DNA from: Bacteriovorax stolpii
GTDB taxonomy: Bacteria; Bdellovibrionota; Bacteriovoracia; Bacteriovoracales; Bacteriovoracaceae
NCBI GenBank assembly: GCA_945905815.1
Contig: CAMDQH010000010.1
Coordinates: 1 to 63,065 of the forward strand
Reading direction: 5' to 3'
DNA: 63,065 nt
Shown one piece after another: positions 4,237-30,577 of the stretch; position 1 is the stretch's first letter, and each line of letters opens with the position of its first letter. Position numbers and translations under genes: made by a program. The notes below the pieces were generated by a model. It had not been told where the DNA came from and searched no databases. It worked only from the letters and a program-made list of their open reading frames with translations.

Positions 4237-4590
4237 GGGGCTAAAATCCTTTGAAGGGTATTTTTGCCGAAATATAGAGGCAAAATTACCCGAATACAAG
4301 CCTCGAGTGGCAATAAATACCTGAAATATAATACTCAAACTATGGCACTTTTCACGCACTTGTACTCTCAAGGTTAAGGCAAACATAACAACTAAAGGAA
4401 TATTATGATTCATTCGCCTAAAACAATTTTTTTTACGCCACGATCTCATTATTTCTAGCAGTATGTGTTCTATTAAATACAGAAGAAGAAAATCTCGAAG
4501 GTTTTTAAATATTAATTTTCCTGTTTTGGGCAGGTACCTTGTAAATGGCACAAATCATCCTGTAAGATACTGAGTATTTAAAGGAAAGTG
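4237..4590. other. Divergent intergenic region, possible weak sigma-54-like site
   Basis: 354 bp between the regulator and the unknown gene at 4591. I see no gene. On the plus strand TGGCAC at 4343-4348 is followed by CGCA with the GG-to-GC spacing of a -24/-12 promoter, but the -12 half reads ACGCA instead of TTGCA. If real it would point at the gene at 4591 and could be a target of the neighbouring NtrC-type regulator. Weak evidence only. Confidence 0.3.
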
Positions 4591-5262
4591 ATGAACCTTG
4601 CTGATTCAATGAAACATGTCTTGAAAAATAAAAGTCAGAATATATTTGGGTTAATCATAAAAGAGGATTTTACAAGAATTGTAAAAGATTTTGCTGTTGG
4701 TGTATTAGATATAAATAATAGAAGTAAAAACGCATATAAAAAATTTTCTTTAAAAGAATCATTTGTTAATGGCAAAGATTCAATCCAGAGTTCCATATTA
4801 TTAGTTAAGGCAATCCCTCAAAGAGTTAGTGATGGATTTAAAATATTTGGTGATGAATTTATAACCGAAATGGAGAAGTTTTCTGATCCAAAACAGAAAA
4901 CAGTTTTTTGCATGAAGGTCTTAGCGGGCTTAAGTAAATTTGCATTCTCCTCTGCTTATGACGTAGGGATTGGGGATGGGAAAATACTTCGTTTAGGTAA
5001 AAATAAAAATATTATCCCGAGTATTGTAATTTCAAAATTGATGTTCAAAACGATTCAATCATTTCTTGTAAGATTAATTGAGGAGATGGAAAAAGAAATT
5101 TCAGACTCTGGAGAATTGAAAAATCTACAAAATTACAAAAATATCATTCAAGACGATTCGGCTAATGCAATTGATAAATTTTTTCAAGGTGTAACTGATC
5201 CGAATGATCGAGCCTTTATTATTGTTGATAACTTCAAAAAATATATTTTAACTGGCGACTAG
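4591..5262 (+). CDS. Hypothetical cytoplasmic protein, 223 aa
   Basis: I do not recognise this protein. It has no signal peptide and looks mainly alpha-helical, with amphipathic stretches and a moderately hydrophobic centre near residue 105-120 (KVLAGLSKFAFSSAYDVG). An ATG at 4591 with AAAGGAAAG upstream is preferred over the GTG one codon earlier. Base composition matches the neighbours. It is divergent from the sigma-54 regulator and is followed by pdxH after about 35 bp, so it may share a transcript with pdxH. Confidence 0.65.
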   Translation: MNLADSMKHVLKNKSQNIFGLIIKEDFTRIVKDFAVGVLDINNRSKNAYKKFSLKESFVNGKDSIQSSILLVKAIPQRVSDGFKIFGDEFITEMEKFSDPKQKTVFCMKVLAGLSKFAFSSAYDVGIGDGKILRLGKNKNIIPSIVISKLMFKTIQSFLVRLIEEMEKEISDSGELKNLQNYKNIIQDDSANAIDKFFQGVTDPNDRAFIIVDNFKKYILTGD

Positions 5263-5297: not shown

Positions 5298-5945
5298 ATG
5301 AACATAAATGAAACATTGGAAAATACCAGGGTGAGTTATCGGAATGCCGATTTCGATATCAATACATGTAATCCTAACCCCCAAACTCAGTTTGATAAAT
5401 GGTTTAAAGATGCAGTTAATAGTAATTGTGATGAACCCAATGCTTTTGTATTATCCACGATTGAACAAAATAAACCACGTGCAAGAGTGGTCCTTTTAAA
5501 GGGTATCCATCAGGGGTGTTTTGCTTTTTATACAAATTACAATAGCTCGAAAGGAAAAGAGGTCACTGATAACTGCCACGTTTCAATGACTTTTCTTTGG
5601 CTACCTTTGCAGCGTCAGGTAAGAATTGAAGGCACTCTTGGAAAAATAGGGGCCAGCTTTTCAGATGAATATTTTCAAAAAAGACCCAGAGGTAGCCAAA
5701 TCGGTGCCATTGCGTCACCTCAAAGTCAAAAAGTTTCTTCACGACAAGAATTAGAAAAATTATTCAATGATACAGAAGTAAAATATTCGGGACAGTCTGA
5801 GCTGGAGAGGCCTTTGCATTGGGGTGGATATTTAATTAAACCAAGTTATTTTGAGTTTTGGCAAGGCAGAGAGAATAGAATGCATGACAGAATCATATAT
5901 GAAAATCATGCAGGTGGTTGGATGCTAAGTCGTCTTGCTCCTTAA
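5298..5945 (+). CDS. pdxH: Pyridoxamine 5'-phosphate oxidase
   Basis: Oxidises pyridoxamine/pyridoxine 5'-phosphate to pyridoxal 5'-phosphate using FMN, the last step of PLP synthesis and salvage. About 215 residues, close to the E. coli length of 218. Recognisable family blocks are RVVLLK, FYTNYNSSKGKEV, RQVRIEG, the RPRGSQIGAIASPQS segment, EFWQGRENRMHDR and the C-terminal RLAP. The ATG at 5298 gives the normal N-terminus; an in-frame ATG six codons upstream is an alternative, and neither has a strong ribosome binding site. The 3' end overlaps the convergent PAP2 gene by 21 bp. Confidence 0.95.
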   Translation: MNINETLENTRVSYRNADFDINTCNPNPQTQFDKWFKDAVNSNCDEPNAFVLSTIEQNKPRARVVLLKGIHQGCFAFYTNYNSSKGKEVTDNCHVSMTFLWLPLQRQVRIEGTLGKIGASFSDEYFQKRPRGSQIGAIASPQSQKVSSRQELEKLFNDTEVKYSGQSELERPLHWGGYLIKPSYFEFWQGRENRMHDRIIYENHAGGWMLSRLAP

Positions 5946-6494
5946 TTGGTAACTTTTAAATATCACCGCTAAAGTTGAAGCCCATATTGCCCCAACTATG
6001 AATCCTCCTAATATGTCGCCGGGGTAATGCACGCCAAGGTAAATGCGACTAAAACCTACGAAAATTGGCAGAATCCACAAAAGATAAAATTTCTTAGATT
6101 TGAATTTTAACAAAATTAATGAAAATGCAATAATGCAAATCGAGTTTGCAGCATGGGAAGAAACAAAACCAAATCGTCCCCCACATTTCTGTCCGAAATT
6201 ATTTATAAAGTCTTTTATCTCGGGAACTCGACAGGGTCTCAACCTTTCAAAAATATTTTTTAAAATATAAGAAGACGTTACGTCTGAGGCAATTATTGCC
6301 AATGTTAAAAACAGTATGAATATGAAAAAATCTTTTCGCGCCAGTTGTTTTGTCGCCATAAAAAAAATGATAGCAATTAAAGGCAGCCAAATAAGCTGAC
6401 TTGAAAAAAAAACCATAATCGAATTAAGCCATGGAGTATGCCAGGAATTTAACTCTAAAAATAACTCGAGATCAAGTGAGGAAAGGTTATCCAT
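5925..6494 (-). CDS. PAP2-family membrane phosphatase
   Basis: 189 residues with about five membrane segments. All three motifs of the PAP2 superfamily are present: K79-x6-RP (KNIFERLRP), SSH at 112-114 (in place of PSGH) and SR-x5-H-x3-D at 149-160. Such enzymes remove phosphate from lipids; members include undecaprenyl-diphosphate phosphatases and the lipid A phosphatases LpxE and LpxF. It starts in a 1-bp overlap with the stop of the dolichol-phosphate-mannose-synthase-like gene, so the two are translationally coupled. That context favours a substrate in lipid or lipid-linked sugar metabolism. Which lipid it acts on cannot be read from the sequence. Confidence 0.88.
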   Translation of the reverse strand: MDNLSSLDLELFLELNSWHTPWLNSIMVFFSSQLIWLPLIAIIFFMATKQLARKDFFIFILFLTLAIIASDVTSSYILKNIFERLRPCRVPEIKDFINNFGQKCGGRFGFVSSHAANSICIIAFSLILLKFKSKKFYLLWILPIFVGFSRIYLGVHYPGDILGGFIVGAIWASTLAVIFKSYQLRSKTT

Positions 6495-7222
6495 TAGTGA
6501 AGGGTTCCAAATATTTTCTTGATCCGCAACCTGAAAACATTAACTACCGCTTCTAAAATTATTTTTCGACTCATCTTAGAATTCCCAACAGTCCTCTCAA
6601 AGAAAGTAATTGGATTTTCAAAACTCGGAAGACCTAGTGACCAGATTTTATATTTCAGCTCTATTTGAAACGCATATCCAATTGAGAATATTTTATCGAG
6701 GTTAATAGAAGTAAGGGCCTTGCGACTATAGCAATTAAAGCCACCTGTTGAGTCTGAAAAGGGTATTCCTGTTATAGTTCGTGCGTAAATTGATGCAAAA
6801 TAAGACAGAAGAAGTCGTTGCATTGGCCAGTTCATGATTCTTATTCCACCAATATATCGTGACCCAACAACTAGGTCATATTTACCAATTCTTTCCGTAA
6901 AAGTGGGAATAGCTTCTGGTTCGTGAGAAAAATCGCAATCCATGGTTATGAAAGCATCATAACCATTTTCTAAAGCCCATTTGAATCCTTTTATATAGGC
7001 AGTCCCTAAACCGAGCTTACCTTTTCTTTCTAAAATATGAAGGTTTTGTTTTTTAGACTGAAAAGACTTAACAACCTGTGCAGTACCATCGGGTGAACCG
7101 TCATCGATAATGAGAACGTTCAGGGTTGGATGCAAAGTATTAAGCGTAATTAGCATTTTCTCAATATTTGAGATTTCGTTGTATGTCGGAATGATAACGA
7201 CAGCTTTATCTAAGCTTATCAC
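6494..7222 (-). CDS. Polyprenyl-phosphate mannose synthase-like GT2 glycosyltransferase
   Basis: 242 residues, GT-A fold. Visible are VIIPTYNE at the N-terminus, IIDDGSPDGTA, the DCDFSH acidic metal site and a C-terminal block (GYAFQIELKYK...PITFFERTVGNSKM) very like eukaryotic DPM1 and bacterial Ppm1. These enzymes move a sugar, usually mannose, from a nucleotide onto polyprenyl phosphate at the inner membrane. There are no C-terminal membrane helices, as in the soluble DPM1 type. The GTG start has AAGGA seven bases upstream. It is coupled to the PAP2 gene and divergent, by 48 bp, from a GT-C enzyme that would use such a lipid-linked sugar. Confidence 0.9.
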   Translation of the reverse strand: MISLDKAVVIIPTYNEISNIEKMLITLNTLHPTLNVLIIDDGSPDGTAQVVKSFQSKKQNLHILERKGKLGLGTAYIKGFKWALENGYDAFITMDCDFSHEPEAIPTFTERIGKYDLVVGSRYIGGIRIMNWPMQRLLLSYFASIYARTITGIPFSDSTGGFNCYSRKALTSINLDKIFSIGYAFQIELKYKIWSLGLPSFENPITFFERTVGNSKMSRKIILEAVVNVFRLRIKKIFGTLH

Positions 7223-7270
7223 CGGAATATCCTTGGCTTATGTTATAGATTCTTTATACCATAAAATTGC

Positions 7271-8587
7271 ATGACGAAAATCTTAAAATTATCACTTCTT
7301 GTACTACTGATTATCCATTTATGGTTAGCGAGTAGTTTCGAGCTTTCTCACGATGAAGCTTACTATTGGTTATATTCTCAACGATTAGATTGGGGCTTTT
7401 TTGACCACCCTCCTATGGTTGGTATTATTATCAAGGCTTTCTCATTTCTTCCTCATTCTGAATTGACCGTCAGATTTGGCTTTATTATTATGCAATTGGC
7501 TTCAGCACTCATGTTGATGAGTCTAGCCCCTAAGCCTCGACAATGGCTGGCACTTGTTTTATTTTTTGCCTTTCCACTAGCTTCTTTTTCAGGTTTATTT
7601 GCACTTCCTGACATGCCGCTCTTATTTATGACAACCTTATATTGTGTGCTGCTAAAACGTTATCTTGAAAAATATGACGCTCTTTCAGTTTTAGGTTTGG
7701 GCGCTGTCACTGCGCTCCTTCTTTATTCTAAATACCATGGAATATTGGTAATTTTCTTTACACTAGTCGCTCTCCCTAAATTATTAAAAAGAAAAGACTT
7801 CTATGTAATTACATCTTTGGCATTGCTGTTTTTCTTGCCACATATCATTTGGCAATATGATCATGACTTCTCGACCCTTCGTTACCATTTTTTTGAACGG
7901 CCTAAAGCTGATTTTAGCCTCAAGAGACTTATTGAATATTCAGGGACTCAAGTTTTCTTAGCAGGGCTTTTTGTAGGCCCATTATTATGGTTGGAAATCA
8001 TAAGAAATAAATCGGAAAACGATTTCCAGAGAGCGTTAAAATTTATTTGCATTGGAACTTTTTTATTTTTTTTCTTTTCAACTATTTCCAAAAAATACGA
8101 AGCAAATTGGACCATATTTTTAACGGCACCACTTATCATTTTAGCAACACAAACAGTTGTTTGGGACAAAAAATGGGTCAGAATCCTTTTGCTGTTTTCA
8201 ATCACTCCTGTTTTCTTCGCGCGTTTTCTTTTGGCGGTGAATCCGAATGAAATTAAAATAAAACGTCTTACTGAATTTCATGACTGGGAAAATTGGGCCC
8301 TAAGTATTGAAAAAAAATGTACTAAGCCAGTTTTAGCAAATACGTACCAAATAGCTTCCAAGCTTTCTTTCTATTTAAACAAACCTATTCATGCGCTGAA
8401 TATTGGATCCAGAAAAAATCAGTTCGATTACTGGCATCCAGATTCTAAATATTACACGAGCATCATGGTCTGTTATTTAACAGATAAAAAACAATTTGAG
8501 GGTGAAATAGTTACAACACCTGATGGAAAGAAGCTTAAGGTAGTACAGAGCTTTATACCTGCTAAATTACAGGATAATAATCCTTGA
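7271..8587 (+). CDS. ArnT/PMT-like GT-C membrane glycosyltransferase
   Basis: 438 residues with roughly ten membrane helices. The first periplasmic loop has the acidic SHDEAYYW motif and DWGFFDHPP, diagnostic of the PMT_2/GT39-GT83 families that take a sugar from a polyprenyl-phosphate donor on the periplasmic side. ArnT moves aminoarabinose onto lipid A phosphate; PMT relatives mannosylate proteins. A soluble C-terminal region of about 90 residues follows the last helix. The gene is divergent from the DPM-synthase-like gene by 48 bp, so promoters must share that gap. The acceptor is unknown. It is shorter than ArnT (about 550), lacking much of the periplasmic C-terminal domain. Confidence 0.88.
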   Translation: MTKILKLSLLVLLIIHLWLASSFELSHDEAYYWLYSQRLDWGFFDHPPMVGIIIKAFSFLPHSELTVRFGFIIMQLASALMLMSLAPKPRQWLALVLFFAFPLASFSGLFALPDMPLLFMTTLYCVLLKRYLEKYDALSVLGLGAVTALLLYSKYHGILVIFFTLVALPKLLKRKDFYVITSLALLFFLPHIIWQYDHDFSTLRYHFFERPKADFSLKRLIEYSGTQVFLAGLFVGPLLWLEIIRNKSENDFQRALKFICIGTFLFFFFSTISKKYEANWTIFLTAPLIILATQTVVWDKKWVRILLLFSITPVFFARFLLAVNPNEIKIKRLTEFHDWENWALSIEKKCTKPVLANTYQIASKLSFYLNKPIHALNIGSRKNQFDYWHPDSKYYTSIMVCYLTDKKQFEGEIVTTPDGKKLKVVQSFIPAKLQDNNP

Positions 8588-8597
8588 AAAAGATTTT

Positions 8598-8622
8598 AAC
8601 ATGCCGTTAAGTAAGGCATGTT
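8598..8622 (+). promoter_or_regulatory. Hairpin enclosing the ribosome binding site and start codon of the PilZ gene
   Basis: A perfect 8-pair inverted repeat: AACATGCC at 8598-8605 and GGCATGTT at 8615-8622, with a 9-nt loop that contains part of the TAAGG ribosome binding site. The ATG at 8618 is inside the 3' arm. Folding would hide the start of translation. It could instead be a weak terminator of the upstream gene, although no T-run follows. Confidence 0.5.
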
Positions 8623-9346
8623 CATCAAATACAATCTTCAAAACTCATACGACAAGGTCAAGTTTTTAACTTTGCTTCAATTCCTTTTTGCTTTAGTTGC
8701 TTTCGTTGCAGAAGCTCTGGTTACTCAGTCAGTGTTAAATTTTTCATTTATTTTTCAGTTCATTTTACTTTTGGCTTCGTATAATTTTTATTACAACGCT
8801 TTATCTCACCTCTTTTACTCCTATTGGAACATCTCCGTTGTCCTGATTATTTATTATCTCGTTTCATTAACAAGAAACTTTTTAGTACTAGATCAGCACA
8901 TAATTGGTTTATTGTTTTTATGTTGCTTTACGTTTTTAATTGCTGCCTGCTATATCATTTCATCACCACTTTATTATCCAAGAGTACACTGGTGGGAATA
9001 CGACTTTAGATTCAGGGCCGACATACGGTGCTCAGCTGAGATTGATGGGCATCAATATAAAGGACGTCTCTCGGATTTAAGAAGAGGGGCTGCTTGCCTT
9101 GAACTCTTTAATCATGCTCACGTAGGGCAAGCAATTCAGATTAATCTTGAGATCCTTAACCAGAATTTTACACTGTTTGCTGAAATACGGTCCAAGCGAG
9201 AGCCTATTATTGGACGATCTATTATTTATGGAATTAAGTTTTTGAACAATGATCTTGAACAAAAGCAGCGCCTTCGCCTGTTGACCAATTATTGGCATGA
9301 GAGTAAAAAGATTAAAATACGAAACAAGTTTGCAGCTCAAAAGTAA
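8618..9346 (+). CDS. Membrane protein with C-terminal PilZ-like domain
   Basis: 242 residues. The first 110 residues hold about four hydrophobic segments. The C-terminal half has a PilZ-like pattern: RADIR near 130 (RxxxR-type), then GRLSDLRRGAACLEL near 150 in place of the canonical D/NxSxxG, and a closing YGIKFLN strand. PilZ domains bind cyclic-di-GMP; the changed second motif makes nucleotide binding uncertain. Such TM-PilZ proteins also resemble the tail of cellulose-synthase-type proteins, but no glycosyltransferase domain is present. It lies 30 bp after the GT-C gene and 3 bp before tadA. Confidence 0.65.
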   Translation: MFIKYNLQNSYDKVKFLTLLQFLFALVAFVAEALVTQSVLNFSFIFQFILLLASYNFYYNALSHLFYSYWNISVVLIIYYLVSLTRNFLVLDQHIIGLLFLCCFTFLIAACYIISSPLYYPRVHWWEYDFRFRADIRCSAEIDGHQYKGRLSDLRRGAACLELFNHAHVGQAIQINLEILNQNFTLFAEIRSKREPIIGRSIIYGIKFLNNDLEQKQRLRLLTNYWHESKKIKIRNKFAAQK

Positions 9347-16822: not shown

Positions 16823-18742
16823 GTGAAAAATAGGATTTTTTTCAGTTTTATTGTCTTTTGTTTTCTTTTTGCAACTGTGATCAGTAAAGCTTTTTATATT
16901 CAGGTCATTAATAAAGAAAGACTTCTGTCGTACGCAAAAAGCCAGTTTATTCGGGAAGTAAAAGCCTTTCCTAATCGTGGAAATATTCTTGATCGTAACG
17001 GAAGCCCCCTTGCCATCAATGTTCACGTTTATAATCTCTTTACGATTCCTAAGGATAAAGATGCTACCTTTTATAATAAACTAAAAAACCTTTCACAAGT
17101 TGTCCCTGAACTTACCTATCCAAAACTCAAGTCACTTGTTCAAAAAAGAACAAAATATACTTGGCTTGCAAAAAAAGTATTTCTTTCAGAATCTCAACTA
17201 CAGAAAATAAAAAAGCTAGAGGGAATATTTGTAGAATCATATTCTCATAGGGTTTATCCAAACCGTGAACTAATGGCACAAACTCTCGGGTTTGTAGGGA
17301 TTGATAATACTGGTTTAGCTGGTATTGAATTCAGTATGAATAAAGAGCTCAAGGGTACACATCAGGTTATAAAATATATTCATGATGCCAAAGGGCGTCC
17401 AATAAAATTTGAATCCAAATCTTCAGAAGCTTACGCTGCAGATATTCAACTCTCGCTGGATAAAGATATTCAGGGTGCCCTCGAAAGCTACTTGCAGGAA
17501 GCAGTGGTTCACCATAAGGCCCACAGAGGTGGAGCTGCAGTTATGGATGCTGAAACAGGAGAGATTTTAGCAATAGGGAACTATCCTACTTTTGATCCAA
17601 ACAAACATGGGGCTTATCCTCAAGAACAAAGAAAAATGGCTTTTGTAACAGATCCATTTGAGCCAGGTTCAATTTTTAAAACAATTACTGTTGCATCTGC
17701 TCTTGAGCATAAAGTCGCTCGGCCGGAGACAAAATTTTTCTGTGAAGGTGGAAAAATGAAAGTCCAGAATCATTGGATATCAGAAGCAGAAACACACGAG
17801 AAATTCGAATGGCTTACAGTTGGAGATATTTTAAAATTTAGCTCTAACGTAGGTATTACGAAAATAGCTTTCAATTTGAAATACCCCAAGCTACGTCAAA
17901 CCATGGATAAATTTCAGCTCGGCCAAAAAACAGGATTGGAAATCGGTGGAGAATCTAAGGGTATTGTTAGCTACAAAGCTACTGATAAAGTTCGACCACT
18001 TAGTCTAAGTAATATAAGTTTTGGACAAGGAATCGCAACTACAGCAATTCAAATGCTTCGGACTTACGCTGCTATAGCCAATGGTGGATATTTGGTTAAA
18101 CCAACTCTTTTAAAAAATGAAGTCAGTCAAATTAAACCTGAGAATAAAATTTTATCTGAGAAAACGGCTAATAATGTTACAAAAATGCTGGTGAATGCAG
18201 TTAATGAGGGAACTGGTAACGATGCAATCATTCCTCATTACGATATTGCCGGTAAGACAGGTACGGCCCAGCGAGTTTCTCCACGTGGTGGGTATGAAGG
18301 CTATATAGGAAGCTTTATTGGTTTTCCTGTTAATGTTAATAAAAAATTTGTTGTTATGGCATATATCGATCATCCAACAGCAAACGGATACTACGGTGGA
18401 GCAACTGCGGCACCTGTTGTTAAAAAAATTACCCAATACATTCTTTATAAGAAAAAAGATTTTGCTCAGTTTGCAAAGTATGATGAAAAATCTAATAAAG
18501 ATAATATGGACACTGTTCAATCACAACAGGCTTCGGCGCAGAGAGTGTTTGCTCCAGGCTTTATGCCGAGCTTTGCAGGATTGGACAAATCAAGTGCCAT
18601 GCAATTAGCTCAAGATCGGTCAATTCAAATTGAAATAAATGGCTTCGGAGTTGTAACAAAACAATCTATTCCATCTGGTACGGCTTTTACTGGTAAAACA
18701 AACTTGCGTCTTGAATTTGAAGCACCGACATATGCTGAATAA
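16823..18742 (+). CDS. ftsI: Septal peptidoglycan transpeptidase (PBP3-type) with PASTA-like tail
   Basis: 639 residues. One N-terminal membrane helix, a PBP dimerisation domain (FPNRGNILDRNG near 52), then the transpeptidase domain with S283-x-x-K (SIFK), S340-S-N and K478-TG. The last 60 residues, after a linker, look like one PASTA domain (FMPSFAGLDKSSAMQLAQ). This makes it more like SpoVD/PBP2x than E. coli FtsI, a pattern common in deltaproteobacterial lineages. The start is GTG. It overlaps murE by 11 bp. Confidence 0.95.
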   Translation: MKNRIFFSFIVFCFLFATVISKAFYIQVINKERLLSYAKSQFIREVKAFPNRGNILDRNGSPLAINVHVYNLFTIPKDKDATFYNKLKNLSQVVPELTYPKLKSLVQKRTKYTWLAKKVFLSESQLQKIKKLEGIFVESYSHRVYPNRELMAQTLGFVGIDNTGLAGIEFSMNKELKGTHQVIKYIHDAKGRPIKFESKSSEAYAADIQLSLDKDIQGALESYLQEAVVHHKAHRGGAAVMDAETGEILAIGNYPTFDPNKHGAYPQEQRKMAFVTDPFEPGSIFKTITVASALEHKVARPETKFFCEGGKMKVQNHWISEAETHEKFEWLTVGDILKFSSNVGITKIAFNLKYPKLRQTMDKFQLGQKTGLEIGGESKGIVSYKATDKVRPLSLSNISFGQGIATTAIQMLRTYAAIANGGYLVKPTLLKNEVSQIKPENKILSEKTANNVTKMLVNAVNEGTGNDAIIPHYDIAGKTGTAQRVSPRGGYEGYIGSFIGFPVNVNKKFVVMAYIDHPTANGYYGGATAAPVVKKITQYILYKKKDFAQFAKYDEKSNKDNMDTVQSQQASAQRVFAPGFMPSFAGLDKSSAMQLAQDRSIQIEINGFGVVTKQSIPSGTAFTGKTNLRLEFEAPTYAE

Positions 18743-20093
18743 TGATGAACTTGGAAAAATTTTAAATGAATCAATTCCTCATGTTTTAATTAATGATATT
18801 CATTGGCGGACACAGGATTCGACTTCTGAAAGCATTCTTTTTTATAAACTAACCGATGATGTCAAAAGTGAGCAGATTTTTTTAGATAGAATAAAAGACT
18901 CGAAATATGCATGGTTAGTTATAAATAGAAACATGCAAAACAATCCTCGTAATGTAAGCATAATTAATGAGGCAATCTGGCCCCACATTCAGAAAAAAAT
19001 TTTAGACAATATTTTTCCTCAACCAAAAATTAAAATGATTGGTATAACTGGGACAAATGGAAAAACGACTACAGCGGATTTGGTTTTACAAATTGGACAT
19101 CTGATTGAGAAAAAAGGGTTTAGTATTGGTACGCTTGGAGTGCGTGAGTACAATAAAACAATGCTAGATTTTGGCCTTACTTCTCCAAGTTTTATAGATT
19201 TTAGAAAGTATTTGTTCAAGTATGGAATGGATAAGGATTTTTGTGTAACGGAAGTCAGTTCTCATGCATTGGTTCAGGATCGATTGTATGACATAGGTTT
19301 TGATGCGGCTGGATGGTTATCTTTCTCACAAGATCATCTTGATTATCATCAGACGATGGATAAATACTTTGATGCAAAAAGTCTTATATTAAAAAAACTG
19401 TTACCTAATAAAAAGTTGTTTATTCCGTCAGAACAGAAGGATCTTTTTGAAAAATTAAAACGAACATCAATTAAAGTAACGATGGCGCCTGAAATTGAAG
19501 GTGAGCTGCCATTATTTTTCAGAACTCAGTTTAATAAAAACAATTTAGAAGTAGCTCAAGCCTTAATTGAAAGTACATTCAATGAATCTGTCACAATCAA
19601 TTATAACTCCTTAGTACCACCAGATGGTCGCTTTTATATTCGGGCCTTTAAAAGTAGCTATATTGTAGTAGATTACGCGCATACTCCAGACGCATTAAAA
19701 AATATTTGTCAGGGAATAAAAAAAGCATTTCCAAATTATAAGCTGAAAGTTCTTTTTGGATGTGGTGGTGATCGTGATCGTTTGAAGCGCCCAATAATGG
19801 CTTCTGTGGTTTCAGACTGGGCCGATGAAATATATGTTACCAGCGATAATCCACGTTCAGAAAAACCTGAACAAATTATTTCAGATATATTGTCGGGTAT
19901 TAAAGGCAAAAATTTTCAATCAATTACAGAACGTCCTGAAGCTGTTAATATTGCTTTTTCTGAATTAAAGGATCATGAGGTTCTGTTACTTGCCGGAAAA
20001 GGTCATGAAGATTATATTCTCATTAATGGAGTGAAACATCCATATAGTGATATACGTGAAGTTGAAGAGTTTATTTCAAGGAAAAAAACATGA
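18732..20093 (+). CDS. murE: UDP-MurNAc-tripeptide synthetase (meso-DAP-adding type)
   Basis: Mur ligase with P-loop GTNGKTTT, DHLDYH, a YFDAKS segment containing the usual carbamylated lysine, DYAHTPDAL and the SDNPRSE motif; DNPR marks the meso-diaminopimelate-specific enzymes of Gram-negatives. 453 residues from the ATG at 18732, which overlaps the ftsI end by 11 bp. The N-terminal substrate domain is somewhat short and divergent. It adds the third amino acid of the peptide stem in the cytoplasm. Confidence 0.95.
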   Translation: MLNNDELGKILNESIPHVLINDIHWRTQDSTSESILFYKLTDDVKSEQIFLDRIKDSKYAWLVINRNMQNNPRNVSIINEAIWPHIQKKILDNIFPQPKIKMIGITGTNGKTTTADLVLQIGHLIEKKGFSIGTLGVREYNKTMLDFGLTSPSFIDFRKYLFKYGMDKDFCVTEVSSHALVQDRLYDIGFDAAGWLSFSQDHLDYHQTMDKYFDAKSLILKKLLPNKKLFIPSEQKDLFEKLKRTSIKVTMAPEIEGELPLFFRTQFNKNNLEVAQALIESTFNESVTINYNSLVPPDGRFYIRAFKSSYIVVDYAHTPDALKNICQGIKKAFPNYKLKVLFGCGGDRDRLKRPIMASVVSDWADEIYVTSDNPRSEKPEQIISDILSGIKGKNFQSITERPEAVNIAFSELKDHEVLLLAGKGHEDYILINGVKHPYSDIREVEEFISRKKT

Positions 20094-21496
20094 TTGCTTT
20101 AGCACATTTTAAAAAATGTCCTTCGATTCTATCTATACCTAAAGATATTGATTTAAATTCAAGCCTAAATTTCTGCACTGATACTAGGAAATATCATCAC
20201 CCTTCATTTTTTGTAGCCATACCTGGAATTAAAGTAAACCCTTTGGATGTACTTGAAAACTTGCTCTCTCAGAAATGCCCTCTCATTGTTTTTCAAGATG
20301 ATCTTATTAATCAATCAAAAGTAAATATTCTTCAAGCTAAATTTCCTAAAACTTCTTTTTTGCCAGTTTCAGATTCAGTAACATTTTTACAGGAACTTTC
20401 ACATCAACACATTATTAATTGGAAAAAGCTTAATTCGAAGAATACGGTTTTTGCGATATCAGGATCTAATGGAAAAACGACTCACAAAGAAATGTTGTCG
20501 CATATTTTGAAAACAATTAAGCCTAACAAAATAGTTGCGACAGAGAAAAACAACAACAACCATTTGGGTGTTCCTCTGACTCTTTTACAAGTGAATGATC
20601 AGACTGAAATGGTAGTTCTAGAATTGGGAAGTAATCATCCTGGTGAAATAAAAGTCCTTTGTGATATCGCTTCTCCTAACGCAGGTCTTACTACGAATAT
20701 TGGTGCAACTCATCTTGAATTTTTCGAAACAGAAGAAAAAGTATTTGATGAAGAGGGCCATCTTTACCATGCAGTTAAAGAATTCTCTCATGGAAAAGGT
20801 TTTTATCTTATAAATAAAGATGACAATTTTTTGAAGATTTTTTCATCTTTTGACGGTGCTGTTACTTTCGGTACATCGGTTGACGCTGAAGCCAAGGTTG
20901 CCTTTTTAGAAAATGGGGCCCAAATTGAATACAAACATCAAAGTTTAGTTGCAACGAATAATCAAATTACTGGACGCCATAATAAATTAAATCTCGTAAC
21001 ATGTGTTTTTATTGCGAGTCATTTTTATCCTGAATCACGTGAAGAAATACTTATTGCAGCTTCAAATTTTCGCCCAACAAAAAATCGCTCGGAATGGATT
21101 GAGTTTGATGGTCGCCCTGTTTTTCTTGACGCGTACAATGCTAATCCATCTTCTATGAAAGCAGCGTTAGAAGGTTTTAAAGAGAGCGTTCTAAGCCAAG
21201 GTTTTACGTTGGATCAGGCCTGCGTCGTTTTGGGTGATATGAACGAGTTGGGAAATTCTTCAGCTCAATATCATAAGGATGTAGGTGGTTTTATTAAACT
21301 ACTTGGATTTAATCAGGTTTATTTTATTGGTCGATTCAGCGGAGATTACCTTAAAGGCCATCCTCAAGCCACGGGAAGACAAAGTGCTGCAGAATTTAAG
21401 CAAGATTTTCGTAATGTCGTTTTAAAGAAATATCAAATTCACTTTATTAAAGGATCTCGCTCTTTACAATTGGAGTCACTCTTCGATATAACTTAA
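20090..21496 (+). CDS. murF: UDP-MurNAc-tripeptide-D-Ala-D-Ala ligase
   Basis: 468 residues. P-loop SGSNGKTT at 124-131, LELGSNHPGEI, NIGATHLEFF, then the Mur C-terminal domain with DAYNANPSSM (DxYNANPxSM is diagnostic of MurF) and LGDMNELG. It adds D-Ala-D-Ala to finish the UDP-MurNAc-pentapeptide. One oddity: the usual AKGEL segment carrying the carbamylated lysine reads DEEGHL here, so Lys is replaced by Glu at about residue 222. The start overlaps murE by 4 bp (ATGA). Confidence 0.94.
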   Translation: MIALAHFKKCPSILSIPKDIDLNSSLNFCTDTRKYHHPSFFVAIPGIKVNPLDVLENLLSQKCPLIVFQDDLINQSKVNILQAKFPKTSFLPVSDSVTFLQELSHQHIINWKKLNSKNTVFAISGSNGKTTHKEMLSHILKTIKPNKIVATEKNNNNHLGVPLTLLQVNDQTEMVVLELGSNHPGEIKVLCDIASPNAGLTTNIGATHLEFFETEEKVFDEEGHLYHAVKEFSHGKGFYLINKDDNFLKIFSSFDGAVTFGTSVDAEAKVAFLENGAQIEYKHQSLVATNNQITGRHNKLNLVTCVFIASHFYPESREEILIAASNFRPTKNRSEWIEFDGRPVFLDAYNANPSSMKAALEGFKESVLSQGFTLDQACVVLGDMNELGNSSAQYHKDVGGFIKLLGFNQVYFIGRFSGDYLKGHPQATGRQSAAEFKQDFRNVVLKKYQIHFIKGSRSLQLESLFDIT

Positions 21497-21521
21497 GTTT
21501 ATCTTTTTTAAAGGGATAAAC

Positions 21522-22598
21522 ATGCTTTATTATTGGCTTTACCCACTAAGTCAATCTAGTCATTTGTTCAATGTATTCAAATACATTACTTTTAGGTCGT
21601 TTCTTGCGTTTATCATTGCCACGGTAGTTTCAATTGTTTGGGGCAAAAGATTTATTGCACTAATGAAATTAAAGCAATTTGGGCAAACGATTCGTGACGA
21701 GGGACCAGCATCTCACAAGAAAAAGCAGGGAACTCCTACTTTTGGCGGTGTGTTTATTTTGGGCAGTGCCGTCATTGCCTGCGCCGTTTGCGGTAACTTT
21801 GTGTCATTTCCCTTTTTAATCACTCTTTTTGTGACAGTTTCTTATTTCCTGTTGGGGGGTCTTGATGACTACCTAAAAGTTCTTAAGAAAAATACAAAAG
21901 GCGTTAGCGCACGTCAAAAGCTAGCTTGGCAGTTTCTAACTGCACTCTTGGCAGCTTTTGTTATGATTAAATATGGTATAACTGACTCACAAGTTTACGT
22001 CCCATTTTTAAAAGATCCGGTGGTTGACCTTGGTTGGTGGTATGTTCCTTTTGCGGCTTTCGTAATTGTGGGTTCCTCAAATGCTTTAAACTTAACAGAT
22101 GGATTAGATGGGTTAGCGATTGGACCTACTATAACTTCTGCAGCAACGCTGGGTTTACTTTCTTATTTGGCCGGGCACGTTGAATTATCAAACTATTTAC
22201 TCATTCCTTATGTCCCAGATGTGGGAGAGCTACTTGTTTTAGTGGCCGCCATAATTGGGGCAAGTGTGGGATTTTTGTGGTATAACGCTTATCCTGCTGA
22301 GATTTTCATGGGAGACGTCGGGTCTCTCTCTCTTGGTGGATGTCTCGGAACGATTGCGGTTTTAACTAAAAACGAAATCTTGTTTGTCCTAATCGGTGGG
22401 ATATTTGTCATCGAAGCACTGTCCGTGATTTTACAAGTGGCATCTTTTAAAACGAGAGGAAAAAGAATTTTTAAAATGGCACCTATTCATCATCATTTTG
22501 AATTGAAAGGTTGGCCAGAAACCAAGGTTATTGTTCGCTTCTGGATTGTGAGTCTGGTTTTTGCCATTCTTGCACTTGCAACACTGAAACTAAGATAA
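21522..22598 (+). CDS. mraY: Phospho-MurNAc-pentapeptide translocase
   Basis: Makes lipid I on the inner membrane from UDP-MurNAc-pentapeptide and undecaprenyl phosphate. 358 residues, about ten membrane helices. GTPTFGG near 68, LDDYLK near 110, NALNLTDGLDGLA near 185, EIFMGDVGS near 250 and the HHHFELKGWPE block near 317 are all family signatures. The ribosome binding site AAAGGGA precedes the ATG. Confidence 0.97.
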   Translation: MLYYWLYPLSQSSHLFNVFKYITFRSFLAFIIATVVSIVWGKRFIALMKLKQFGQTIRDEGPASHKKKQGTPTFGGVFILGSAVIACAVCGNFVSFPFLITLFVTVSYFLLGGLDDYLKVLKKNTKGVSARQKLAWQFLTALLAAFVMIKYGITDSQVYVPFLKDPVVDLGWWYVPFAAFVIVGSSNALNLTDGLDGLAIGPTITSAATLGLLSYLAGHVELSNYLLIPYVPDVGELLVLVAAIIGASVGFLWYNAYPAEIFMGDVGSLSLGGCLGTIAVLTKNEILFVLIGGIFVIEALSVILQVASFKTRGKRIFKMAPIHHHFELKGWPETKVIVRFWIVSLVFAILALATLKLR

Positions 22599-22614
22599 AT
22601 TTTAAGGAGTTCTC

Positions 22615-23997
22615 ATGGAAAAATATAAAGGCAAAAAAGTCTTGGTCGTTGGTCTTGGAAAGACTGGGTTTGCACTCATTCATCTTTTTACTCAATTAGG
22701 TTGTGAAATTAAAGTTACGGATATTAAGCCGATCTTTGATTTGAATAAACAGGTTAAGCGTTTAAGAAAAATTACACCTGTGCCCACAATGACACTTGGT
22801 GAACATAAAGATGAAGATTTTATTGATGCGGATATGGTGGTTTACTCTTCATCGGTTGATCCACAACTTCCACAATTAAAAGTTGCACGTGAACACGGTA
22901 GAGCTGTGTTTTCCGATTTTGCTTTTGCCTATGAAAACTGCAAAAGACCAATAGTTGCTGTATGTGGAAGCCATGGAAGAACTATTACGGCGCACATGAT
23001 CGGTTACACCCTTAAAGTTGATAAAAAGAACGTTTTTGTTGGTGGAACTTCTGAAGAGCCTTTCATTAATTTTCTTTCGTTACCTAATAAAGAAGAAATT
23101 GATTACTGTGTAATTGAAGTCTCACCCTTGCAGCTTCAAACTGTTGAGAATTTTAAACCTATTATGGCCGTCTATCCTAATCTTGAAGAAAAGAATCTTC
23201 AAGGCCGCTTTAAAACGTCAGCTGAATATCTTGATACGGCCCTTAAGGTTGCAAGAAACCTTGGTCCAGAAAGTTATCTCGTAGTGAATTTTGATAAACT
23301 GGCATCAAACTCAGTTCTAAGATCTTCTCAAGCTCAAACATTTTGGTATTCAAGAAAATCATTTGTTACAATGGGCGTGATTTCTGAAATTCAAGGAACA
23401 CATTTTCACGATAAACGCATTCATTCCAATATTCATTATCATTCAGAATTCAAAGTGACCGATATGCGAATTGTTGGTGTGAATAACCGTGAAAACATGA
23501 TGGCCGCTATAACAGCTTGTAAAGCTCTTAAAGTATCTGATCTTTCAATTCAGCATTGTATTGAGAAGTTTCCTGGTATTCCTCACCGGCTTGAATTTGT
23601 CATTGAAAAGAACGGTGTTCGTTTTTATAACGACTCTAAGTCTGAAACGATGGACGAACTTAAAGTTTCTCTTGAGGCCTTTAAGGATCCCGTTATTTTA
23701 ATTGCCGGCGGTAAAGAAGTCGAAGGTGTTACTTACGATAAATATGCCGGAATTATGAAAGAAAAAGTTCGCGTTCTGGTTTTGGTTGGTGAAGTTAAAG
23801 AAGCCATGAACCGTGTTTTAGGTGATTCAACTCAAACCTACCTTGTAGGCTCTTTTGATGAGTCAGTTTTACTGGCCTATCAAAAGTCCCGAACTGGTGA
23901 CACGATTTTATTGTGTCCGGGCAATGACAGTACTGACGTTTTTCGTGATTTTGAAGAAAAAGGTAACTACTACAAAAAACTCATCTTCCAACTTTAA
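22615..23997 (+). CDS. murD: MurD-type ligase (UDP-MurNAc-L-Ala:D-Glu) with a degenerate ATPase centre
   Basis: 460 residues. The N-terminal UDP-binding Rossmann fold (VLVVGLGKTGFA), GIPHRLE and NDSK in the linker, and the D-Glu-binding C-terminal region (LLCPGNDSTDVF...FEEKGN) are MurD-like, and so is the position between mraY and ftsW. The ATPase centre is not: the P-loop reads GSHGRTI (118-124) with Arg122 in place of the universal Lys; the usual N-x-DH-x-D segment reads PNLEEKNLQG; the lysine normally carbamylated (YxxAK) is absent. So this may be an unusual or catalytically altered MurD. No frameshift is visible, and codon use matches the neighbours. Confidence 0.85.
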   Translation: MEKYKGKKVLVVGLGKTGFALIHLFTQLGCEIKVTDIKPIFDLNKQVKRLRKITPVPTMTLGEHKDEDFIDADMVVYSSSVDPQLPQLKVAREHGRAVFSDFAFAYENCKRPIVAVCGSHGRTITAHMIGYTLKVDKKNVFVGGTSEEPFINFLSLPNKEEIDYCVIEVSPLQLQTVENFKPIMAVYPNLEEKNLQGRFKTSAEYLDTALKVARNLGPESYLVVNFDKLASNSVLRSSQAQTFWYSRKSFVTMGVISEIQGTHFHDKRIHSNIHYHSEFKVTDMRIVGVNNRENMMAAITACKALKVSDLSIQHCIEKFPGIPHRLEFVIEKNGVRFYNDSKSETMDELKVSLEAFKDPVILIAGGKEVEGVTYDKYAGIMKEKVRVLVLVGEVKEAMNRVLGDSTQTYLVGSFDESVLLAYQKSRTGDTILLCPGNDSTDVFRDFEEKGNYYKKLIFQL

Positions 23998-24045
23998 TGT
24001 CCTATGTTACACTGGAGATGAAACAACTCATTTCCGGTGTAACAC

Positions 24046-25212
24046 ATGCAAGACGCAAATAACCGACTAGAAAAGTTAACTAATTACTTCCTAATCAATG
24101 TCTTTTTTCTGACACTCTTTGGTGTCATCATGGTGTTCTCTGCCAGCTACATGTATGCAACTGAGAATATGGGTAACAGCTATTTCTTTTTATATAAGCA
24201 ATTAATCTTCGTTGCCCTTGGCTTAACTTTGGCCTTGGTCTTTTCGAAATTTAAAATTATTTATCTTTATAAACAGGCCTACAAGATTAATGCTCTTTTT
24301 AGCTTTGTCATCACTCTGACTCTGGTACCAGGAATTGGTGTCATGATGAAGGGTTCAAAACGCTGGTTAAACCTAGGTTTTATGAATCTTCAGCCCGGTG
24401 AGTTTATTAAATACACACTTATGTTGGCAGCGATCCGGTATTTTGAAAATTTTAATAACTACGATTCGAAACAAAAAGTTCTTTATGCTTCTGGATTGGT
24501 ATATCCGTTGGCGGTTTTTGTTCTACAACCAGACTTTGGAACATTTTTTATTGCTTCAATGATAATTGGATTTATTGCATTTTTGAGTTCATTTCCACGT
24601 AAATATTTATATGGAACTATGGTGGTTGGTTTTATAGGTGCCTTTGGAATTTTGATCTCTGCACCATATAGAGTTAAGCGTCTGCTTGCCTTTTTAGATC
24701 CATGGGCCGACCCAAGAGGAAGTGGCTTTCAGGTTATTCAATCATTTTTAGCTTTTGCGCATGGTTCTTTTTTTGGGCAAGGACTGGGAAATAGTAACGA
24801 AAAATTATTTTATCTGCCTGAAGCATATAACGATTTTATATTTTCAGTTGTTGGAGAAGAGTTAGGTTTTGTCGGTGTTATTACCACTGCCATTATGTTC
24901 GTATGCTTCATATTTATAGGTTTTAAAATGGCGATTTCGCTTAAGTCCCGCGTCGGAAGCATAATGGTTGCAAGCATAATTTTTTCAATTGGTTTTCAAG
25001 CTTTTCTGAACATGGGCGTAGTCTTAGGTGTCCTTCCAACTAAAGGACTAAATCTTCCCTTTATCAGTTATGGAGGGTCATCTATGGTGGCGAACCTGGC
25101 GGCACTCGGATTGGTTTTTGCATGCATTAAAATCCAGCCTAGCGATGTGAAGGATGTTAAGGCAAAGGGAAAACAATCTCCAATTGGTGCTCTTAAAAGT
25201 GTTTTTAATTAA
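24046..25212 (+). CDS. ftsW: Septal peptidoglycan glycosyltransferase FtsW
   Basis: SEDS-family protein of 388 residues with about ten membrane helices. Visible are VFSASYMYA in helix 1, the MMKGSKRWLNLGFMNLQPGE loop, FGTFF and the C-terminal PTKGLNLPFISYGGSSM signature. SEDS proteins polymerise lipid II together with a class B PBP, here FtsI. The start ATG lies 48 bp after murD. Confidence 0.96.
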   Translation: MQDANNRLEKLTNYFLINVFFLTLFGVIMVFSASYMYATENMGNSYFFLYKQLIFVALGLTLALVFSKFKIIYLYKQAYKINALFSFVITLTLVPGIGVMMKGSKRWLNLGFMNLQPGEFIKYTLMLAAIRYFENFNNYDSKQKVLYASGLVYPLAVFVLQPDFGTFFIASMIIGFIAFLSSFPRKYLYGTMVVGFIGAFGILISAPYRVKRLLAFLDPWADPRGSGFQVIQSFLAFAHGSFFGQGLGNSNEKLFYLPEAYNDFIFSVVGEELGFVGVITTAIMFVCFIFIGFKMAISLKSRVGSIMVASIIFSIGFQAFLNMGVVLGVLPTKGLNLPFISYGGSSMVANLAALGLVFACIKIQPSDVKDVKAKGKQSPIGALKSVFN

Positions 25213-25215
25213 CCC

Positions 25216-26271
25216 ATGAAATATGCAGTACTTGTTGCAGGTGGAACCGGCGGACATATCAATGCAGCTTTGGCCGTTGGTGAAGCGCTTAAAGATCAGG
25301 GCTATGAGATTATTTATCTCACTGGCAAAAGACCTCTAGATTACAAATTGTTTAAAGGGCAAAATGTCCGGCATCTTAATTCAAAACCATTAAGAACAAA
25401 CAATCCATTTATACTTATTAAAAATATAATTTTAAATTTTATTGGTTTTGTTTCGATTTTCTTTTTATACGTAACTAAACGACCAAAATTTATTGTTGGT
25501 GCCGGAGGATATGTTTGCGGACCAACGCTTTTGGCCGGTTTTTTACAAGGTGTTCCAGTATTTATCATTGAGCAAAACGCAGTAATGGGACTGACTAATA
25601 AAATTCTTGGATGGATTTCTGATCGAATATTTGTTCATTTTACCAAAACCAAAGGCCTATATTCAGTTCTGGCTAAAAAAGTGCGAGTTGTGGGAAATCC
25701 TACCCGTAAATCTATTCAGCCTGTACCCAATAAAAAAATAGATACAAATTTAAAAGTCCTTGTCTTTGGTGGAAGCCTTGGTGCAACTCAAATAAATAAA
25801 GTGATTTTTGATATTTTAAAAAAACCTTCTGTTCAAAACATGAGTATTCATCACCAACTTGGCAGTGGCCAAAAAGTTCCAGAAATTTCCAGTGTGGTTG
25901 AATACCAACCAATGGAATACATCGATAATATTCAGGCCGAATATCAGTGGTGCGACGTTATAATTGCTCGAGCTGGAGCAAGTACTGTATCAGAATTGGC
26001 CATCATAAAAAAACCAGTTCTTATTTTTCCTTACCCTCAAGCTACTGATAATCATCAGTTATATAATGCACTAATATTTAAAGAAGAATCTGACTTTACT
26101 GTTGAGGTTCTTGACCCGAAAAGCCCGCATGATGTGTGCCTTAAACATGCACAAGAATTCCTAGTCAAGGCTTCAAAGGAAGCGTTAAAGTACTCTCAGA
26201 CACCTCATACAGGTAATCACACCTGCGCTGAGATATTAAAAGAGATACAAGACCATGTTGGGATTTCTTAA
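25216..26271 (+). CDS. murG: Lipid II synthase (UDP-GlcNAc transferase)
   Basis: Adds GlcNAc to lipid I at the inner membrane. 351 residues, GT28 GT-B fold: VAGGTGGH near residue 7, the VGAGGYVCGP segment near 95, EQNAVMGLTNK near 118, FGGSLGA near 188 and ARAGASTVSEL near 257, then PYPQATDNHQ. It starts 3 bp after ftsW and overlaps murC by 17 bp. Confidence 0.97.
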   Translation: MKYAVLVAGGTGGHINAALAVGEALKDQGYEIIYLTGKRPLDYKLFKGQNVRHLNSKPLRTNNPFILIKNIILNFIGFVSIFFLYVTKRPKFIVGAGGYVCGPTLLAGFLQGVPVFIIEQNAVMGLTNKILGWISDRIFVHFTKTKGLYSVLAKKVRVVGNPTRKSIQPVPNKKIDTNLKVLVFGGSLGATQINKVIFDILKKPSVQNMSIHHQLGSGQKVPEISSVVEYQPMEYIDNIQAEYQWCDVIIARAGASTVSELAIIKKPVLIFPYPQATDNHQLYNALIFKEESDFTVEVLDPKSPHDVCLKHAQEFLVKASKEALKYSQTPHTGNHTCAEILKEIQDHVGIS

Positions 26272-27631
26272 AACTACAAAATTACATTTTATTGGTATTG
26301 GCGGAATCGGTATGAGTGGTATTGCCGAAGTTCTCTTAGATTTAGGTTACCTCGTTTCAGGTTCAGATTTAAATTCATCTTCCGTAACTGAAAACCTTCG
26401 AAAAAAAGGTGCTAGCATCTTTTTAGGTCACTTATCATCGAATGTTGAAGATGCAACACTGATTGTCTACAGCTCAGCGATTGATGCTAAAAACCCAGAA
26501 TTTTCTCGTGCCCAGGAATTAAAAATTCCCATGATTAGACGGGCAGAAATGTTGGCCGAACTTATGCGGCTTAAATTTGGGATTGCAGTTGCTGGTTCGC
26601 ATGGAAAAACAACAACCACAAGTTTAATAGCCACCATTTTTCAAGAAGCTAAGCTTGATGCGACACATATTATTGGTGGGATTGTCAGCAACCTTGGCGG
26701 AAATGCACAAAAGGGTGATGGAGAATTCCTGATTGCTGAAGCTGATGAATCAGATGGGTCATTTCTTCTTCTTAATCCAATCATGGCAGTCATTACAAAT
26801 ATTGATGATGATCATTTAGATTTTTACGGTACGAAAGAAAAAGTTGTGGAAGCTTTTGTAGAATTTGTTAACAAGCTTCCTTTTTACGGGAGAATTGCAC
26901 TCAATGCTAACGATGCTTCAAGTGTTGCGATTAAAAGCCGAATAAAAAGACCGATGGTTTGGTATGGTATTGAAACAAAAGACGAGGATGTTGAATACCT
27001 TGCAAAGAATATTCAGTTGTCAGCAAGCGGAACGACATTTGATCTTTATTATAAAAACGAAAAAATAGTTGAAATTAAAACCCATCTTTTGGGCATGCAT
27101 AACGTTTCAAATACTCTCGCTGCGATTTCAATTTCTCGTGAAGCAGGGCTTGAATGGAATTTTATTCAGATTGGTCTTCTGAAATTCCTTGGAGTAGGAA
27201 GAAGATTAGAAAAACTTTTCGATAAAAATGATTTCTTAGTAATAGATGATTATGGTCACCACCCAACAGAAGTTCGCGCAACTATAACGGCACTTAAAAA
27301 TGTAGACAAACGATCACTCTGTGTTGTTTTTGAACCCCACCGCTACAGCCGAACTCAAAATTTCTGGAAAGAATTTCAGGAATGTTTTGAAGGGAGTGAT
27401 GAATTATTTTTACTCCCAATATATGCCGCCAGTGAAAATCCAATCGAAGGTATATCTAGTGAGGCGTTAGTTTTGGCAATGAGGGCCAATGGTAAACAGG
27501 TCGTATTCTTACCTTCGCTTAAAGAAATGGGACCAGTTCTTAAAAGTCATCATCGTCCAGGGAAAATATTTTTAACCTTGGGCGCAGGCTCAATTTCAAA
27601 AAATATACGAGAAATGGTAAAAGAATTATGA
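26255..27631 (+). CDS. murC: UDP-MurNAc:L-alanine ligase
   Basis: 458 residues. FIGIGGIGMSGIAEVL at the N-terminus, P-loop GSHGKTTTT near 112, EADESDGSFL, NIDDDHLDFYG, the DDYGHHPTEV motif and FEPHRYSRT mark MurC. It adds L-Ala to UDP-MurNAc. Start and stop overlap murG (17 bp) and murB (4 bp), indicating tight coupling. Confidence 0.97.
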   Translation: MLGFLKTTKLHFIGIGGIGMSGIAEVLLDLGYLVSGSDLNSSSVTENLRKKGASIFLGHLSSNVEDATLIVYSSAIDAKNPEFSRAQELKIPMIRRAEMLAELMRLKFGIAVAGSHGKTTTTSLIATIFQEAKLDATHIIGGIVSNLGGNAQKGDGEFLIAEADESDGSFLLLNPIMAVITNIDDDHLDFYGTKEKVVEAFVEFVNKLPFYGRIALNANDASSVAIKSRIKRPMVWYGIETKDEDVEYLAKNIQLSASGTTFDLYYKNEKIVEIKTHLLGMHNVSNTLAAISISREAGLEWNFIQIGLLKFLGVGRRLEKLFDKNDFLVIDDYGHHPTEVRATITALKNVDKRSLCVVFEPHRYSRTQNFWKEFQECFEGSDELFLLPIYAASENPIEGISSEALVLAMRANGKQVVFLPSLKEMGPVLKSHHRPGKIFLTLGAGSISKNIREMVKEL

Positions 27632-28527
27632 AGTTAAAAGAGAAACTAAACTCTCTTAATGATGTTGAGTTCTTAGAAAATGAAAACCTAACTAGTTATA
27701 CTACATTTAAATTGAATTCTGAGGGCGACCTATTAAAAATTAAAAGCATAGAAGCCTTACAAAAGACTCTATCTATTTTAAACGCTGAAAATAAATCATA
27801 TTTAATTGTGGGCTGGGGTGCGAATCAGATTTTGCCGGCCAAATGTGAAGAATTCATAATTTATTTAGAACTACCTTTTGATTCACAAATTCTTCAATCT
27901 GTTAAAGATGAATATTTAATTCCTGCTTCATTAGGAATTAATTATCTAACAGCCCATGCAGTTAAATTTGGGCTTAAAGGCTGGGAAGTTTTCACGGGAA
28001 TTCCAGCATCATTCGGTGGCGCTATATATATGAATGCAGGTACTAATTTAGGAGAAATCGGATCACTTGTAAAAAAAGTTCAACTGATAACTCCTGAAGG
28101 AAAACTGAGGGAGGAAGTAATCTCTAGCGAAAGTTTCTCGTACCGCAAAAATAATTTTGTGAAACCTGGAGAGGTTATTGTTTCAGCTGTCATTACACAT
28201 CTGGGTCTAGATGAAACCATTCCGCAAAAAATCCGAGATTATTTAGAATACCGTAAGAAAACCCAACCGCTATCGACAAAAAATTGTGGGTGTGTTTTTA
28301 AAAATCCACTCAAAGAGTTACCGGCCGGAAAACTGATTGATCTACTCCAGCTTAAAGGAGTAGGAGTAGGTGATTTACGAATAAGCCCAAGGCACGGAAA
28401 TTTTATGGAGAACTCTGGAAAGGCCTCTTGGGATCAATTCCAGTCGCTAGTTAATCTTATAAATTTTGAAATGGATCACTTCTACGGAATAGAGTTTGAA
28501 TTGGAAGTAAAAATCCCTTATCATTAA
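27628..28527 (+). CDS. murB: UDP-N-acetylenolpyruvoylglucosamine reductase
   Basis: FAD enzyme making UDP-MurNAc. 299 residues: the SYTTFKLN opening, GWGANQI (FAD site), GIPASFGGAIYMNAGT near 133, SYRKNNF near 170, and the NCGCVFKNP...PAGKLID block, plus a glutamate near the C-terminus (ELEVKIPYH). The insertion pattern is that of the short (type II-like) MurB. It overlaps murC by 4 bp. Confidence 0.96.
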   Translation: MKLKEKLNSLNDVEFLENENLTSYTTFKLNSEGDLLKIKSIEALQKTLSILNAENKSYLIVGWGANQILPAKCEEFIIYLELPFDSQILQSVKDEYLIPASLGINYLTAHAVKFGLKGWEVFTGIPASFGGAIYMNAGTNLGEIGSLVKKVQLITPEGKLREEVISSESFSYRKNNFVKPGEVIVSAVITHLGLDETIPQKIRDYLEYRKKTQPLSTKNCGCVFKNPLKELPAGKLIDLLQLKGVGVGDLRISPRHGNFMENSGKASWDQFQSLVNLINFEMDHFYGIEFELEVKIPYH

Positions 28528-28530
28528 TTC

Positions 28531-29283: not shown

Positions 29284-29327
29284 AATTAAATAGAGGCATG
29301 AAGCCTCAATATCGAGAAGGGAATCTC

Positions 29328-30563: not shown

Positions 30564-30577
30564 TTTCGGAGGCTTTT

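Follow-up and report, generated by a model that had tools for sequence, protein, structure and literature searches.

A candidate three-gene module for replacing a phosphate of lipid A with a hexose in Bacteriovoracaceae

Introduction

In rhizobia, a lipid A phosphate is replaced by a sugar through three enzymes, namely, LpxE, a PAP2-type lipid A 1-phosphatase; RgtE, a GT2 enzyme that synthesizes undecaprenyl phosphate-galacturonic acid (Und-P-GalA); and RgtF, a GT-C enzyme that acts as an alpha-(1,1)-GalA transferase. The lpxE and rgtF genes of M. loti bear consecutive locus tags (PMC7795004). In Francisella, dephosphorylation comes first, and an ArnC/ArnT-type pair then adds sugars (PMC8149597, PMC4688374). 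Among predatory bacteria, Bdellovibrio bacteriovorus HD100 has a neutral, mannose-bearing lipid A, going by the title that PMC12228718 cites for Schwudke et al. 2003. In the literature that we searched, no genes appear to be assigned to the mannose-bearing lipid A of these bacteria. Here we analyze three neighboring genes of Bacteriovorax stolpii, which code for a PAP2 phosphatase, a DPM1-like GT2, and an ArnT-like GT-C and which lie in a 63,065-nucleotide stretch of DNA (contig CAMDQH010000010.1; hereafter, the window). A first-pass annotation had read them as a candidate pathway for phosphate-free, mannose-decorated lipid A of the HD100 kind. Our best reading, offered tentatively, is that the module would swap one phosphate of an envelope lipid, probably lipid A, for one hexose, in the manner of LpxE/RgtE/RgtF. 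The module provides a testable three-gene candidate in Bacteriovoracaceae for the question of mannose-type lipid A.

Conservation and origin of the module

The gene order and phyletic distribution of the three genes indicate that they are likely to constitute a functional module, in good agreement with the earlier idea that they act together. Among 95 genomes of the family, a GT2 orthologue is found in 79, nearly always in a single copy, and a strong match to the GT-C is found in 21 (three additional weak matches are other GT-Cs). The PAP2 gene lies directly 3' of the GT2 gene in 20 of the 21 GT-C-positive genomes and adjoins the GT-C gene in the remaining one, whereas it follows the GT2 gene in just 1 of the 58 genomes that have the GT2 but lack the GT-C. 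As the GT2-PAP2 pairing is retained in 10 genomes with the GT-C gene at another locus, it does not merely reflect a shared position. In the subset of family genomes that are at least 95% complete, the PAP2 subfamily is present in 8/8 GT-C-positive and 0/39 GT-C-negative genomes; across the phylum's 157 most complete genomes, with thresholds of 120 bits for the PAP2 subfamily and 70 bits for the GT-C, 73 have both, 6 have only the GT-C, 12 have only the PAP2, and 66 have neither, all of these being counts that are not independent, as the genomes share ancestry. The result is a sharp contrast within one family between genera that carry the module and others without the GT-C and the PAP2.

The same retention of the three open reading frames in other genomes rules out their being chance open reading frames. 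The GT2 and PAP2 genes overlap by 1 base (CACTAATGG), the A being common to the TAA stop of the former and the ATG start of the latter, and the PAP2 gene has a 21-base overlap with the 3' end of pdxH. The GT-C gene is divergent from the GT2 gene across a 48-bp gap. The coordinates, strands, 1-base overlap, and divergent spacing of these genes are exact (Table 1), and the arrangement is the one given in the first-pass annotation.

Table 1. Genes of the candidate module in the window
Feature	Coordinates	Strand	Basis
PAP2 integral-membrane lipid phosphatase, 189 aa	5925..6494	-	Pfam, active-site residues, AlphaFold model
DPM1-like GT2 with a GTG start, 242 aa; candidate synthase of polyprenyl-phosphate hexose (mannose?)	6494..7222	-	Pfam, P. 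furiosus DPMS match
ArnT-like GT-C (PMT_2/GT39 type), 438 aa	7271..8587	+	Pfam, AlphaFold model

In a midpoint-rooted tree from a quick search, the GT-C of the module clusters with GT-Cs of Alistipes (Bacteroidota), with an SH-like approximate likelihood ratio test (SH-aLRT) value of 99, and the GT-Cs of HD100 and other Bdellovibrio form a separate clade (SH-aLRT, 100). At six Alistipes/Rikenellaceae loci, a GT-C of the same clade lies within 10 kb of the GT2 orthologue, which extends the association to another phylum. With the PAP2 profile, three Bacteroidota PAP2s score 150 to 186 bits and the Bdellovibrionota PAP2s from outside Bacteriovoracaceae score no more than 129 bits. A transfer between Bacteroidota and Bacteriovoracaceae is possible. 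A search of plasmid records with the GT-C recovered no match. A fuller scenario, which we consider unlikely though conceivable, is that the module, with PAP2 and GT-C components closest to Bacteroidota homologs, was gained in two clades of Bacteriovoracaceae and yields a hexose-bearing, partly dephosphorylated lipid A independently of the neutral lipid A pathway of Bdellovibrio. A PAP2 gene of Bacteroides finegoldii that adjoins leuB is a possible orthologue of the proven LpxF BT1854 (PMC5850320).

Families, folds, and active sites of the three proteins

The GT2 protein is matched by the Pfam Glycos_transf_2 model (E = 1e-26, above the curated cutoff), and its nearest solved relative is the dolichol-phosphate mannose synthase (DPMS) of Pyrococcus furiosus (105 bits; E = 3e-29; residues 6 to 232), the next match scoring 37.5 bits. 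The protein combines the GT2 fold and a DPMS-type core with an invariant D-C-D (DXD) motif, and the DPM1-like label given to it earlier is upheld by a DPMS match far above those to other GT2s. None of the curated equivalog models reaches its cutoff with this protein, and mannose is our best guess for its sugar.

The GT-C protein is matched by the Pfam PMT_2 model (E = 2e-11, above the curated cutoff), which covers GT-Cs other than protein O-mannosyltransferases (PMTs) as well. Across 18 relatives, neither the D-E nor the Y-Y of its DE-x-YYW motif varies, and this D-E pair, the catalytic D28-E29, lies in the first periplasmic loop, as in ArnT/RgtF-type enzymes. The AlphaFold model (predicted local distance difference test [pLDDT] score, 88 for the PAP2 described below and 89 for the GT-C) has ArnT as its best PDB match (5f15; E = 5e-7; TM score of 0.68 by query length), with weaker matches to ALG12 (E = 5.5e-4) and fungal PMTs (E = 1e-3 or weaker); hence, the nearest fold is that of ArnT and not that of a PMT. 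Sequence searches of the PDB with the GT-C, both single and profile based, gave no match, and neither did the curated ArnT model. The class assigned in the first-pass annotation, an ArnT/PMT-like GT-C, is nevertheless sound in view of the PMT_2 match, the ArnT-closest fold, and the conserved motif.

These results bear on protein O-mannosylation, in which the GT2 would make undecaprenyl phosphate (Und-P)-mannose and the GT-C would be a protein mannosyltransferase, the PAP2 being unrelated or acting in carrier recycling. The PMT_2 and DPMS matches are consistent with it, as is the frequent presence of the GT2 in family genomes without the GT-C, which implies that the GT2 product has other uses. 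However, the structural matches to fungal PMTs are weaker than that to ArnT, and the coinherited phosphatase is left unexplained; we regard this explanation as improbable.

The PAP2 protein is matched by the Pfam PAP2 model (E = 3e-22, above the curated cutoff). It was said earlier to have all three PAP2 motifs, which slightly overstates the case: KX6RP and SRX5HX3D are present, but the second motif reads VSSH instead of PSGH. The catalytic residues K79, R86, S113, H114, R150, H156, and D160 are invariant across 21 relatives. The protein thus has the membrane fold and catalytic residues of the LpxE/LpxF group with a deviating motif 2, at which Aquifex LpxE itself departs with PSGD (PMC6581854). 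The top PDB matches of its model are Bacillus subtilis YodM/PgpB (5jki; E = 5e-6) and Aquifex LpxE (6ebu; E = 1.3e-4).

Exchange on lipid A or carrier recycling

The folds and families, intact active sites, gene arrangement, and co-distribution described above were all computed; the scheme that we build on them is conditional as to which substrates, sugar, and acceptor are used and in what sequence the enzymes act. The GT2 would charge Und-P with a hexose from a nucleotide sugar, mannose being the best guess, and a putative flippase would turn the loaded carrier to the periplasmic face. At that face, the PAP2 would strip a lipid of a single phosphate, the likeliest target being the 1- or 4'-phosphate of lipid A, and the ArnT-like GT-C would then transfer the hexose to the hydroxyl so exposed or to one close by. 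The predicted product is a lipid A with one phosphate replaced by one hexose, rather than one that is fully phosphate free.

Several observations fit this exchange. The nearest structure to the GT-C model is that of ArnT, which transfers a sugar to lipid A, and LpxE is among the close matches of the PAP2 model. This genome encodes LpxK, as do 11 others tested, HD100 among them, so that lipid A is made with a 4'-phosphate available for removal. Since glycosylation of proteins or O-antigen from an Und-P-sugar needs no phosphatase, the PAP2 is most simply explained as providing a dephosphorylated lipid acceptor, and the known joint occurrence of PAP2, GT2, and GT-C enzymes, which serves a swap of sugar for phosphate on lipid A, also favors a lipid acceptor. 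A literature search for a published lipid A structure of Bacteriovorax stolpii yielded just the statement that the backbone includes 2,3-diamino-2,3-dideoxyglucose (GlcN3N) (PMC8036547).

As to how many phosphates could be removed, the genome (3.01 Mb in 141 contigs) holds two PAP2 proteins, of which one is integral to the membrane and the other is apparently secreted, without membrane helices. With a single membrane PAP2, removal of both lipid A phosphates is unlikely, and the phosphate-free product proposed in the first-pass annotation is improbable accordingly; alternatively, a single PAP2 may act at both sites, or a gene may be missing from the assembly.

Other points weigh against the exchange. 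The PAP2 scores higher with the undecaprenyl-diphosphatase models SepP and BcrC (57 and 48 bits) than with LpxE (16 bits), and the former two match 21/21 PAP2 members, versus 9/21 for LpxE, although the window PAP2 lies far below each of the respective curated cutoffs (250, 229, and 177 bits) and likewise below that of PgpB. Related PAP2 genes in Bdellovibrio-type genomes adjoin genes for a peptidoglycan transglycosylase or a squalene synthase-like protein (the latter named by eye), though others adjoin heptosyltransferase or Alg9-like genes. The module has no adjoining lipid A gene, and we infer both lipid A as the acceptor and the identity of the sugar. Finally, the GT-C requires two changes on the GT2 tree, seen as independent gains in two clades; with only 2 independent pairs, the association of the genes cannot be significant after correction for ancestry.

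Part of this evidence suits a different role, in which the PAP2 would be an undecaprenyl diphosphate (C55-PP) phosphatase that feeds carrier to the GT2, with the GT-C glycosylating another envelope acceptor (lipopolysaccharide [LPS] core, O-antigen, capsule, or another glycolipid) and the lipid A phosphates left untouched. The SepP and BcrC scores, the YodM/PgpB fold, and the transglycosylase neighbors of related PAP2s all point that way. In addition, BacA/UppP was not found in this genome. If the gene was truly lost, the window PAP2 would be the sole membrane candidate for a C55-PP phosphatase; with 141 contigs, however, its absence may reflect a gap in the assembly. Conversely, the presence of the PAP2 tracks the GT-C and not the loss of BacA, and all four congeners checked have BacA and yet keep the PAP2, on which ground we rejected the PAP2 as a simple replacement of BacA. 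Moreover, a GT-C that uses an Und-P-sugar frees Und-P, and a diphosphatase is unnecessary there. We consider this role a real possibility, albeit a doubtful one. Known LpxEs share only ~15% identity (PMC6581854), and a score below the LpxE cutoff therefore leaves the function of the PAP2 unsettled; because LpxE enzymes act on both lipid A and C55-PP (PMC6581854), sequence cannot separate the two roles, which may indeed coexist.

Flanking genes and related PAP2 loci

A membrane protein with a PilZ domain is encoded at positions 8618 to 9346 of the window, between the GT-C gene and tadA. We rejected the idea that it regulates the GT-C specifically, as it is present in 86 of the 95 family genomes regardless of the GT-C; this neighborhood is probably simply inherited. 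On the other side, a 224-aa protein (4588 to 5262) without a match in Pfam or NCBIfam adjoins pdxH in congeners too and is less conserved than its neighbors. Farther along, downstream of dnaX, the region from 16823 to 32062 holds a division and cell wall cluster (penicillin-binding protein transpeptidase, Mur ligase, MraY type, FtsA, and FtsZ).

Elsewhere in Bdellovibrionota, a conserved cluster of PAP2, epimerase, and peptidoglycan transglycosylase genes was seen at six loci in HD100 and several relatives. At six loci of one other family of the phylum, a related PAP2 gene adjoins a GT9 heptosyltransferase gene, with an Alg9-like GT22 gene at three of the six. Such loci could possibly be a second LPS-related phosphatase/mannosyltransferase cluster.

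Comparison with known systems

The likeness to HD100 lies in the presence of distant homologs of all three genes in one genome whose lipid A is, by the title cited above, mannose bearing. The GT2 homolog is at 1,487,559 (272 bits), the PAP2 homologs are at 127,680 and 2,341,205 (109 and 98 bits, versus 243 to 266 for module members), and the GT-C homologs are at 3,698,609 and 2,766,907 (167 and 83 bits). However, none of these genes are linked, one of the PAP2 genes sits in the transglycosylase cluster, and the GT-Cs belong to other lineages, apart from the clade of the module GT-C. The host itself is a member of Bacteriovoracaceae, within the phylum a different family from that of B. bacteriovorus, the two being placed in separate classes in current taxonomy, and its genome has a single membrane PAP2 and a single GT-C of the module type. 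That the trio removes both phosphates and attaches mannose after the HD100 pattern is thus very improbable; the analogy drawn in the first-pass annotation fails on these grounds, and the HD100 lipid A structure should not be carried over to this organism. As a lead only, two PAP2s and two GT-Cs in HD100 would match in number a pair of phosphates and a pair of mannoses, and the list of homologs (two GT-Cs, two PAP2s, and one GT2) makes the HD100 question directly testable. The main HD100 GT-C gene lies in a gene order (3,690,000 to 3,708,000) that also occurs in other Bdellovibrionota, with neighbors named from reading their sequences: nucleoside diphosphate kinase-like, rRNA methyltransferase-like, TPR, RodZ-like helix-turn-helix, and GT-C.

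Francisella offers a likeness in chemistry, with dephosphorylation by LpxE/LpxF followed by sugar addition via a GT2/ArnT-like pair with neighboring locus tags, FlmF2 (ArnC-like) and FlmK (ArnT-like); there, however, the phosphatases have distant locus tags, and FlmK has ~587 aa versus 438 for the window GT-C. ArnT, the aminoarabinose transferase to lipid A, is the best structural match of the window GT-C, yet at 13% identity. The rhizobial LpxE/RgtE/RgtF system comprises the same three enzyme classes and replaces a phosphate with a sugar; RgtE has 338 aa, compared with 242 in the DPM1-like window GT2, and RgtF corresponds to the window GT-C by enzyme class.

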